DNA of 35,699 nt from Paracoccaceae bacterium (GCA_902525995.1 CABZJG010000002.1:1-35699), one strand, 5' to 3'. Positions 27,108 through 30,335 are shown, counted from the first letter of the stretch. Numbers and translations: made by a program. Notes: generated by a model not told the origin, from the sequence alone.

Positions 27108-28977
27108 ACTCAAACAGCGCCCCTTGCTCATAGTCCTTCTGATGGGCATTTTCCTGTCGGTTTTAGCGATCTTTGGCGCGCGCTACGCAGACAGCACTAT
27201 GTTGGGTCTATTGGGTCTGAGCTCCAATGAAGACACCGCCGAGCTTTCAGATCAAAGCAGATATGGCGGCACAATTGATGGCATGCTGGCACGCACGGAA
27301 ATAGAAACCCTGCCTCAGATCATCGAACCCCTACCGCCGCTTATTTTAAGCGAAGAAGATGAGGCGCTCGAAAACGAGCCGGCACCTTTGGGCGATCTTA
27401 GTATAGATACCGCCAGTGATCCGCTGCTGCCACCAGATGAGGACCAGCCGGCGCCAAAGCCAGTTGCAGCGCCGGAAGAAAACGCCGCGCCGGCTCCACA
27501 GGCCAGCACACCGCCGCAAACCGGACTTCTCGATAAAGCCACAGAATTTTTTATCGATCCTTTGGCAGCGCAGACAAATAACACCGCTGCGCCGCCCATG
27601 GCTGCCGCGCCGCGCGAGGATGATTGGCGCCAGCAATTGCTTGACGAGTTTAACAAAAATGTTCTCTCAGCAGAGCTTGATGCGCGGCTCGCCGAAAAAG
27701 AAAGGCAGCGCGAACGCGCCAGACAAGCAGATCTTTCGCCGCTTGGCGGATCTTTATTCACACTTGATGAGATGAAGGAAACTCTAACGCCCAATACTGA
27801 TTTTGCCTCAATCAGCCCGAATATGAATACCAGCGAGGCTTTTGATCGCGCAGGTATGTCTGGGCAGACTGAAGCCGCCACCGTAAATGCCCATAGGCTG
27901 GCGGCTGGAACTGTGATTTCCGCCACATTCATAGATAGTATTAATTCTGAATTGGCTGGAAAAACACGCGCGATTGTCACCCGCGATGTATTTGACAGCG
28001 TAGATTTAAGATCGGTGGTTATTCCCAAGGGCGCGCAGCTTCTAGGATCTTATGATTATCAGACAGTCGCGGGGCAAAATAGGCTCTTCGTGTACTGGAC
28101 AAAGCTGCGATTGCCGGATGGCCAAACCGCCCAGCTCGCTGAGGCCTCTTCTCTTTCCCAATCGGGCGAGTCCGGTCTTGAAGGGCAGCGCAGTAGCGGC
28201 TTTTTAAAGGCCATTGTCCAAGGCACTTTGCTGAACCTTGCGCAAAATGCCGCGCGCGGCGGAAGCGCTCCTGAGGCGCCGGATGGTCTGGCGTCCGCTG
28301 CAAAACTCGCACTGGGGCAAAGCTCGGGCACTTTGGCTGAAGAATATTTAAAACGCGCCATGGCCGGGGGCACAACATTTACAATACCGGCCGGCACGCC
28401 TTTTTCTGTGCAACTGGCGACAGATTTGCTGCTTACGCAAGGTGGCGCAGAATATTCAACGCAGCAGAATACTCGCTTCGATCCCCAAAGCACCTTAAAC
28501 TACCGGCGCGCAGACTATGGAACCTGGTCTGATGACGATGGAGATTGCAAAAACACGCGCCACGAACTTCTGGAAAAATCGTCCTCACAAAGCGTTACAT
28601 ATTCATCGGACGGGTGCTTTGTGCAAACCGGCCTCTGGAAAGATCCTTACAGCGCCGAGGTGTTCACCCGCGCAAGCGCGCTGGAAATTGATCACATCGT
28701 GCCTGTCGCCTATGCCCATTATCGAGGCGCAGGGGCTTTTAGCCCGGCTCAAAAGCGTAACTTCTACAATGATCCGGCAAATCTTATTGCGGTCAAAGCC
28801 GCGCTCAATCAAGAAAAGTCGGCAAAAAGCCCCCTCGACTGGCTTCCGCCAAATCGGCGTTTTCGATGCAGCTATGTGACCCGATTTGATTCAATTGCAC
28901 AGAAATATCAGCTGAGCTATCGCAGCGGGGAAAGCGCGCAAATTCAAGCTTTGAAAGATGAGCTATGCGGGGCTTAA
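27100..28977 (+). CDS. trbI: TrbI/VirB10-family protein fused to a C-terminal HNH (DUF1524/GmrSD-C-like) nuclease domain
   Basis: TM near the N-terminus, Pro-rich linker, VirB10 core AAGTVISATFIDSINSELAGKTRAIVTRDVFDSVDLRSVVIPKGAQLLGSY...TIPAGTPFSVQLATDLLL, then YGTWSDDDGDCKNTRHELLEKSS...CFVQTGLWKDPYSAEVFTRASALEIDHIVPVAYAHYRGAGAFS...NFYNDPANLIAVKAALNQEKSAKSPLDWLPPN, in one uninterrupted frame. Confidence 0.9.
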   Translation: MNRLKQRPLLIVLLMGIFLSVLAIFGARYADSTMLGLLGLSSNEDTAELSDQSRYGGTIDGMLARTEIETLPQIIEPLPPLILSEEDEALENEPAPLGDLSIDTASDPLLPPDEDQPAPKPVAAPEENAAPAPQASTPPQTGLLDKATEFFIDPLAAQTNNTAAPPMAAAPREDDWRQQLLDEFNKNVLSAELDARLAEKERQRERARQADLSPLGGSLFTLDEMKETLTPNTDFASISPNMNTSEAFDRAGMSGQTEAATVNAHRLAAGTVISATFIDSINSELAGKTRAIVTRDVFDSVDLRSVVIPKGAQLLGSYDYQTVAGQNRLFVYWTKLRLPDGQTAQLAEASSLSQSGESGLEGQRSSGFLKAIVQGTLLNLAQNAARGGSAPEAPDGLASAAKLALGQSSGTLAEEYLKRAMAGGTTFTIPAGTPFSVQLATDLLLTQGGAEYSTQQNTRFDPQSTLNYRRADYGTWSDDDGDCKNTRHELLEKSSSQSVTYSSDGCFVQTGLWKDPYSAEVFTRASALEIDHIVPVAYAHYRGAGAFSPAQKRNFYNDPANLIAVKAALNQEKSAKSPLDWLPPNRRFRCSYVTRFDSIAQKYQLSYRSGESAQIQALKDELCGA

Positions 28978-30335
28978 GGGCACTCATTTATATCATTTCC
29001 CTGTGCGGCCTGTGCATTGTGCAGACATCCGCGCGGGCCTGCACGACCTCAAGCCTTCTCGTTCTTATAGGCCAGCTCGAAGCGCCTGAAGGGTTTAATC
29101 AAACCTATTCCGGCGTTAAATTTCCTCCGCCCGAACCACTTGACCAGATGACAGTGCAAGAGGTGATGGACTGGCAGAGCGCGGCAGGGCTGACGCCTGT
29201 ATCCTCTGCCGCAGGGCGCTATCAACTTACCCGTGAGGTGCTGGATGCGCTTGTTCAAAGCGGCACCATCAGAGCCCGCGACAGATTTAACCCCAAAACA
29301 CAAACGCGGGCCGCAATTCATCTGCTCGAAAAAGCAGGATATAAAGACGGCGTGAGCGATCCGGATGTGGCCAATCGCATCGCGACGCTTTGGCCTTCTT
29401 TTCCGCGTGTGAGCGCCAAGAACAGCGCAGATCCAAGCGCAGAGTCAACTACGGTGCCAAAACGCATCGGCATTGCGGGCAATCCCGCCCTGCTGGATGA
29501 CCAGAGTTTCATGCAATTTTTGAACTGTGAAATAGACATCCATGCGGCCAAGGCCGCCTCAAGCACCATTCAAAAGAGCCGTAGCCTGTCAGGGTTTATC
29601 GAAAACCTGCTCGAACAAACGCGCCAGGCAAGCGAGCGCATTGCAAAAAACCTAACGCCGATGGCCCTGCCTCTGCTCTTCGCTATGTTCACAATACAAC
29701 TTGTTTTGACTGGCGCCCAAACGGCTTTGCGTGGCACGTCCTTGAGTGATTTTCTAACCGCCTTTACCTTTAAACTTCTGATCTTCGTTTTACTTTGGGC
29801 AGTGATCCTCAAATATCCCGACTTTTTAAAAATGGTACAGCGCGCGGCAGGCGCTTTGAGCGGCACAGCTCTTGGCCAAAGCGATTTTTCGCTTCAAGAC
29901 TATGTGGTGGGGCGCTCTAATCTGCTGAATAAAAATATGATGATCGCCAGCACCCTTGGTGTGGGCCCCGAGCTTATAGCCGCAGGCGTTGCGGCCATCT
30001 CTTACCTTTTAATGATGGCCATCGTTGCGGTGATCATCTGGCATTATGCCGCTGCGTTGCTGACAGCCGCCATGGCAAGCTTTGTGCTGGCATTTGGCGC
30101 GCTTGAGGCTTTAAAGCCCACCGCCATAAACGCTGTCTCGACCCTGACCATCGGCCTGCTGCGGATCTTTGCGGTCAACGGGGTGTTTTTTATTTTATGG
30201 GGGCTGTTCAAATCCGTCAGCGATCAATCAGCCTCGCAGTCCGCAGCCTTCGGGATGCTTGTCATGGATGTCTTGATGTTGGTCTTATTGGCCGTATTGC
30301 CCACCTATATTTCGGGGCTTGGAAAACTGCGATGA
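28965..30335 (+). CDS. Fusion: N-terminal lambda-R/GH104-like muralytic domain plus C-terminal VirB6/TrbL-like polytopic domain
   Basis: LEAPEGFNQTYSGVKFPPPEPLDQMTVQEVMDWQSAAGLTPVSSAAGRYQLTREVLDAL...TRAAIHLLEKAGY...ATLWPSFP, followed by at least five TM segments (LLFAMFTIQLVLTGAQTAL..., LLIFVLLWAVIL..., GVAAISYLLMMAIVAVIIWHYAAALLTAAMASFVLAFGAL...). Confidence 0.8.
   Translation: MRGLRALIYIISLCGLCIVQTSARACTTSSLLVLIGQLEAPEGFNQTYSGVKFPPPEPLDQMTVQEVMDWQSAAGLTPVSSAAGRYQLTREVLDALVQSGTIRARDRFNPKTQTRAAIHLLEKAGYKDGVSDPDVANRIATLWPSFPRVSAKNSADPSAESTTVPKRIGIAGNPALLDDQSFMQFLNCEIDIHAAKAASSTIQKSRSLSGFIENLLEQTRQASERIAKNLTPMALPLLFAMFTIQLVLTGAQTALRGTSLSDFLTAFTFKLLIFVLLWAVILKYPDFLKMVQRAAGALSGTALGQSDFSLQDYVVGRSNLLNKNMMIASTLGVGPELIAAGVAAISYLLMMAIVAVIIWHYAAALLTAAMASFVLAFGALEALKPTAINAVSTLTIGLLRIFAVNGVFFILWGLFKSVSDQSASQSAAFGMLVMDVLMLVLLAVLPTYISGLGKLR

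Follow-up and report, generated by a model that had tools for sequence, protein, structure and literature searches.

A reading frame in a plasmid-type conjugation operon of a marine Paracoccaceae bacterium joins a lambda-endolysin-like GH104 domain to a VirB6/TrbL-like membrane domain. We read its product, with a probability of roughly two in three, as an additional VirB6/TrbL-type subunit belonging to a conjugative type IV secretion system (T4SS) of the P type (Trb), a subunit whose periplasmic N-terminus is extended by a GH104 transglycosylase and which would act in stalk-associated opening of the cell wall. The timing and siting of peptidoglycan opening by T4SSs are poorly defined, and the natural fusion of a wall-cutting domain with a VirB6-type stalk subunit suggests where the cutting activity is needed. 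The window analyzed here is the whole 35,699-nt stretch of DNA (GCA_902525995.1 CABZJG010000002.1:1-35699), which comes from an incomplete, fragmented assembly (61% complete).

A single reading frame within a trb operon carries both domains

The fusion gene (28965..30335, + strand) runs from ATG to TGA through 456 codons (456 aa) in a frame without an internal stop, as supported by ORF calling, the junction sequence and full-length homologues. It encodes a signal peptide (aa 1-25, 28965..29039, +; read by eye from hydropathy) followed by Cys26, a GH104/lambda-R-like lysozyme domain (aa 26-190, 29040..29534, +; PHROG_90, hhalign and AlphaFold2 (AF2) model), a predicted helical linker (about aa 192-229, 29538..29651, +; AF2 and hydropathy) running into the first TM helix, and a TrbL/VirB6-like domain (aa 208-456, or about aa 208-452; 29586..30332, +) assigned from TIGR02783, paralogy to trbL and fold matches. 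The AF2 helix spans residues 192-256 and hydropathy places the TM start at about aa 230; six TM segments are predicted in the TrbL-like half after the signal peptide. The ORF is exactly as the original prediction had it: signal peptide, lysozyme-like domain and polytopic TrbL/VirB6-like domain in one frame.

The start of the fusion gene overlaps the trbI/virB10 stop (28977) by 13 nt, within the last trbI codons, and its end overlaps the start of a solo GH104 gene by 4 nt (ATGA). Because it overlaps its neighbours on both sides, the fusion gene is part of a tightly packed operon. Upstream on the same (+) strand lie trbB (VirB11), a small ORF, a TrbC-like pilin gene (19593-19928, identified by eye), trbG (VirB9) and a gene for a trbH-like lipoprotein (together 18248..21484), trbE (VirB4) and trbJ (VirB5) (21481..24674), the canonical trbL (VirB6; 24671..25771; PF04610 2.3e-14, TIGR02783 3.9e-31), two copies of trbF (VirB8; 25787..26443 and 26436..27107; PF04335 4.7e-16 and 7.7e-19, respectively) and trbI (VirB10; 27100..28977; PF03743 5.2e-34). 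The separate, normal trbL at 24671 had also been predicted, and the PF04610 match bears it out. Downstream, again on the + strand, are the solo GH104 gene (30332..31051; 239 aa, with a signal peptide and an internal Cys pair, C125/C141), which the original prediction had overlooked, and TraB-like and TraF-like genes (31055..32634), the TraB-like gene following the solo GH104 in a relative too. The operon holds two TrbL-type and two GH104-type domains, in the order TrbL ... GH104-TrbL, GH104.

The product of trbI carries an extra C-terminal GmrSD_C/HNH domain (PF07510 3.2e-11), encoded at about 28480-28977 and about 40-45% identical to stand-alone HNH family proteins. VirB10 of the related cluster described below (G032) is without this HNH domain, and in a set of 198 relatives the window alone gave an unbroken match across both parts. 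It would be unusual for a T4SS core protein to bear a nuclease at its outer end. The window has two adjacent TrbF/VirB8 paralogues (25787-27107) and the G032 cluster has one. R64-like type IVb pilus genes (TcpQ/PilL with LysM, PilN, PilQ, PilR, PilS and PilV-like) occupy 3227-17461, so that the element pairs type IVb pilus genes with a P-type Trb system and a RepC replicon; the pairing of pilus and Trb genes is also found in G032.

The N-terminal half resembles phage lambda endolysin R

The N-terminal half matched the PHROG_90 endolysin family (E 4.4e-12, aa 28-148) and is paralogous to the adjoining solo GH104 ORF (E 5e-13). The match of the single fusion sequence to lambda lysozyme was weak (phmmer, E 0.5); a profile of four fusion and solo proteins found lambda lysozyme 3d3d/1am7 in the PDB (E 0.005), and an hhalign comparison of the GH104 domain with lambda R, taken from the lambda record, gave 95.7%. 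No match to the SLT domain (PF01464) was found in the fusion ORF or on the window contig. The original prediction had pointed to the Glu of the motif LEAPEGF as a target for mutation. The motif holds two, of which the first (Glu39, 29079-29081, +) is invariant in eight aligned relatives and the second is G or T in other fusions. Glu39 aligns with Glu19 of lambda R, the catalytic residue of that enzyme, and is thus the putative catalytic Glu of the fusion. The fusions have one cysteine before and one after the GH104 domain (Cys26 and Cys188 in the window) and the solo proteins have a different internal pair, a pattern that fits possible envelope disulfides.

The best reading of the N-terminal half is a GH104 (lambda-R-type) peptidoglycan transglycosylase with putative activity. 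Its identity to lambda R is about 20%, which would also suit a catalytically inactive domain whose role would be limited to binding peptidoglycan and to anchoring or positioning the stalk within the wall. The putative catalytic Glu does not vary between the fusions, the solo proteins, the phage relatives and lambda R, motifs of the core (SxAAGxYQ among them) are retained, and the domain is under strong purifying selection, so we consider an inactive domain improbable.

The C-terminal half scores as a diverged TrbL paralogue

Against NCBIfam TIGR02783 (TrbL_P), the C-terminal half gave E 2.6e-8 and 33.6 bits, below the equivalog cut-off of 128.85; the window's canonical trbL likewise stays under this cut-off (108.5 bits). 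Against Pfam TrbL (PF04610) it gave E 0.014 and 15.6 bits, below the gathering score of 25.9, and relatives reached 19.6 bits. BLASTP against the operon's own trbL gave E 2e-14 over 242 aa. Together with the PHROG_90 match, these searches find in the frame both of the domains on which the original prediction depended. Because it scores under every curated TrbL cut-off, the C-terminal half is, on sequence criteria, a diverged TrbL paralogue rather than a TrbL orthologue; the earlier description as VirB6/TrbL-like holds in the former sense and not in the latter.

The distance from signal peptide to TM1, measured by hydropathy, is 27 aa in the canonical TrbL vs 210 aa in the fusion, and the TrbL half of the fusion is without most of the C-terminal tail of about 100 aa that canonical trbL encodes. 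Identity of the TrbL half between the two genera that carry the fusion is only about 26%. Because of this low identity and the scores below the Pfam and NCBIfam cut-offs, the VirB6 function of the TrbL half may have drifted. GH104 was found in none of the TrbL frames at 30 sampled alphaproteobacterial TrbL loci, and in TrbL proteins sampled from the class the TrbL domain is mostly preceded by about 36 residues.

Structure prediction recovers stalk and lysozyme folds

The AF2 model of the whole fusion was built without templates from ten aligned sequences of the window and the loci, with R388 TrwI and lambda R left out. It was moderate (pLDDT 68, pTM 0.46), with pLDDT 80-97 in most of the GH104 core and about 47-84 in the TrbL half. 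In a Foldseek search against 350,542 PDB chains, ranks 1-8 were R388 stalk (TrwJ/VirB5-TrwI/VirB6) chains and rank 9 was lambda lysozyme, with probabilities of 1.00 and modest E-values (0.004 for the best stalk chain; 0.14). We took the matched stalk chains to be TrwI/VirB6 from chain lengths and the aligned part. The isolated GH104 domain model (pLDDT 82) retrieved 1am7 and 3d3d at ranks 1 and 2 (TM about 0.5, E 0.02-0.03), and its further matches were mostly lytic transglycosylases. The E-values are modest, yet no competing fold appeared among the matches, and the retrieval of R388 VirB6 (TrwI) and lambda lysozyme agrees with the two-domain composition originally proposed.

The fusion and its neighbours are conserved in Aestuariivita

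A full-length fusion, 33% identical to that of the window, is present in Aestuariivita sp. CAR2_bin_10 (G032, contig JAPORY010000065.1), and a second full-length copy was found in another Aestuariivita genome (G789); in both, the gene order is fusion, then solo GH104. A further Aestuariivita contig (G790) begins inside a matching TrbL C-terminal tail that is directly followed by a solo GH104, so that only the TrbL tail of this copy is visible and the GH104 half falls beyond the contig end. The solo GH104 accompanies the fusion in 4/4 genomes, at least one of which (G032) is a MAG. The window and G032 have a long cluster in common, from TcpQ/PilL, PilN, PilQ, PilR and PilV to TrbB through TraB-like, with the shared Trb order TrbB, TrbG, TrbH, TrbE, TrbJ, TrbL, TrbF, TrbI, fusion, solo GH104, TraB-like. 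In G032 a DNA methyltransferase-like gene (11773-13425 of locus L022) lies between trbF and trbI and breaks the window's order.

The original prediction had named a frameshift joining two genes as the way in which it might fail. The fragmented assembly of the window gives some room to such an artefact, be it a frameshift, a mis-assembly or a chance joining, but full-length fusions with the same neighbours in two other assemblies, together with a frame that has no stop, rule out a frameshift and leave this explanation with next to no probability.

Comparison of G032 with G789 gave pN/pS of 0.19/0.83 in the GH104 half and 0.32/0.72 in the TrbL half, synonymous sites being close to saturation; identity was 72% and 54%, respectively. 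As judged from these substitution patterns, both halves are under purifying selection. The slower evolution of the GH104 half is what might be seen if the TrbL half were a degenerate copy that serves only as a membrane tether, holding the enzyme near the machine and outside the stalk and channel. The scores under the curated cut-offs, the loss of most of the C-terminal tail and the retention of a complete trbL in the same operon point in the same direction. A single TM helix would do for a tether, yet purifying selection has maintained the TrbL domain at its whole length in each of the three complete copies, and VirB6 stalk chains still come first in the fold search. We therefore hold a mere tether to be unlikely, though it is the strongest of the competing explanations, and favour a second VirB6/TrbL-type subunit.

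Origin and rarity of the fusion

A tree of 41 GH104 domains places the three fusion domains in one clade (86/87), which also takes in one degenerate D. shibae fragment and is sister to the solo clade (88/76). Both stand apart from GH104 domains encoded next to MobF relaxases (98/99) and from prophage endolysins. In the TrbL tree, the TrbL half of the fusion groups with the canonical TrbL of the same system against other TrbL proteins (100/100); the fusions as one clade are only weakly supported (79/81). The TrbL half is nearest to its own system's trbL and therefore derives from a duplication. The simplest account of these trees would be that trbL and a GH104 gene were duplicated within one T4SS lineage and that a single fusion event followed.

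The D. shibae fragment is an unannotated stretch of plasmid pDSHI04 (NC_009958.1, 27565-28014) on a long branch within the fusion clade; it looks degenerate and is probably a remnant. Solo GH104 genes just downstream of coupling-protein and MobF relaxase genes occur on plasmids of Cereibacter, Maritalea, Pukyongiella, Yoonia and Phaeobacter. Most carry the annotation hypothetical, and two are labelled glycoside hydrolase family 104. A family known chiefly from phages, GH104 thus turns up repeatedly with alphaproteobacterial conjugation genes.

Profile searches of overlapping genome sets (397 from the family, 395 from the class, the two genera and 297 relatives of G032) returned full fusions only in the window genome, G032 and G789. 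With the partial G790 copy, the fusion is found in four sampled genomes, all of one family. No PLSDB plasmid record matched over 80% of the fusion query, and no fusion was found among IMG/VR contigs, where the only relatives were unfused phage tail or endolysin proteins; on this ground a phage origin of the whole locus was rejected. A plasmid search with the window trbL for further TrbL relatives gave none at 1e-8. Several candidates were rejected: the matches in G352 and L042 are prophage-type endolysins rather than fusions, and the long frames of G386 and G272 have GH104 within long soluble phage-type proteins in which no TrbL was seen by eye. Plasmid p3 of Caballeronia sp. Lep1P3 (L070, 9632-12113) has a related TrbI-to-pilus layout with two SLT-type transglycosylase genes after trbI, in the place where the window has GH104-TrbL and GH104. 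It was rejected as an unfused version, since the 420-aa protein adjacent to the SLT genes resembles TrbG/CagX and not VirB6.

A proposed model for stalk-associated wall opening

VirB6 makes the pentameric base of the stalk (PMC9259494, PMC11294453), and its N-terminal domain is periplasmic and contacts VirB10 (PMC6120205). On this basis the GH104 domain would sit on a VirB6-type subunit at its periplasmic end, with the signal peptide and the periplasmic N-terminus placing the enzyme outside the inner membrane. The TrbL half may dock in or beside the VirB6 stalk via TM1/VirB10 contacts, and the helical stalk of the fusion would hold the enzyme towards the wall, where it could open the glycan mesh at the very site that the stalk or pilus must cross. 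The neighbouring unfused GH104 may be a freely diffusing partner. A published assembly model begins with VirB1 opening the wall (PMC12624023), and VirB1 is described as non-essential in the R388 system (PMC9259494). In the present system, the fusion and solo GH104 could together replace a missing VirB1/TrbN; the window contig ends at 35.7 kb, and a separate VirB1 could lie beyond it.

In sum, we infer enzyme activity, periplasmic placement, stalk docking and a role in transfer from sequence and predicted structure, and the physical coupling of peptidoglycan remodelling to the inner-membrane channel has the same footing. A bolder and more tentative version, to which we give clearly less weight, has GH104-TrbL and canonical TrbL assembling together into one mixed VirB6 ring; the channel itself would then cut peptidoglycan at stalk insertion, and no VirB1 would be used. 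The fusion offers a single polypeptide on which coupling could be probed by one point mutation.

Two features might recall a weapon or barrier role: the domain family is common to phage endolysins and tail lysozymes, and the neighbouring VirB10 bears an HNH nuclease domain. The GH104 domain would then face the partner cell, or be passed into it, and the cut to the recipient wall would be made from the donor's side. A domain joined to a polytopic inner-membrane protein, however, cannot leave the donor without proteolysis, and no immunity gene was identified adjoining the fusion; we regard such a role as very improbable.

Comparison with known systems

In reviewed systems (PMC12857230, PMC12624023) the VirB1-type enzyme is a protein of its own, and our search of an open-access full-text library, including papers on Patescibacteria and Gram-positive T4SSs, found no VirB6-hydrolase fusion. 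The presumed job of the fusion, local opening of peptidoglycan, is shared with VirB1/TrbN/Slt-type enzymes and with Gram-positive PrgK, TraG and Orf14. These have SLT, muramidase, CHAP or LytM domains, and none is described as fused to VirB6 in the passages considered (PMC12857230).

Phage lambda endolysin R (GH104 lytic transglycosylase, 1am7/3d3d) is like the N-terminal half in fold, in the putative catalytic Glu (E19=E39) and in the SxxAGxYQ motif. Lambda R is a free lysis enzyme, in contrast to the domain described here, which comes with a signal peptide and is joined to a polytopic membrane domain. The C-terminal half is like the stalk subunits R388 TrwI and RP4 TrbL in predicted fold, TM pattern and operon context. 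The fusion differs from them in that its signal peptide and TM1 lie about 200 residues further apart, in being a duplicate alongside a canonical trbL and in its short C-terminal tail.

The solo GH104 genes on Pukyongiella, Maritalea, Yoonia and Phaeobacter plasmids likewise place GH104 at a conjugation locus, but they are unfused, form a distinct clade and lie beside relaxase and coupling-protein genes rather than inside a Trb operon. In the Rickettsiales (RvhB6a-e; Anaplasma VirB6-4), too, a single system contains several paralogues of VirB6 with large non-membrane extensions, which shows that big extensions on VirB6 paralogues are tolerated (PMC2653234, PMC7648143). In the passages considered, no enzyme domain is reported for the Rickettsiales paralogues, whereas the extension of the fusion described here is a recognisable enzyme domain.
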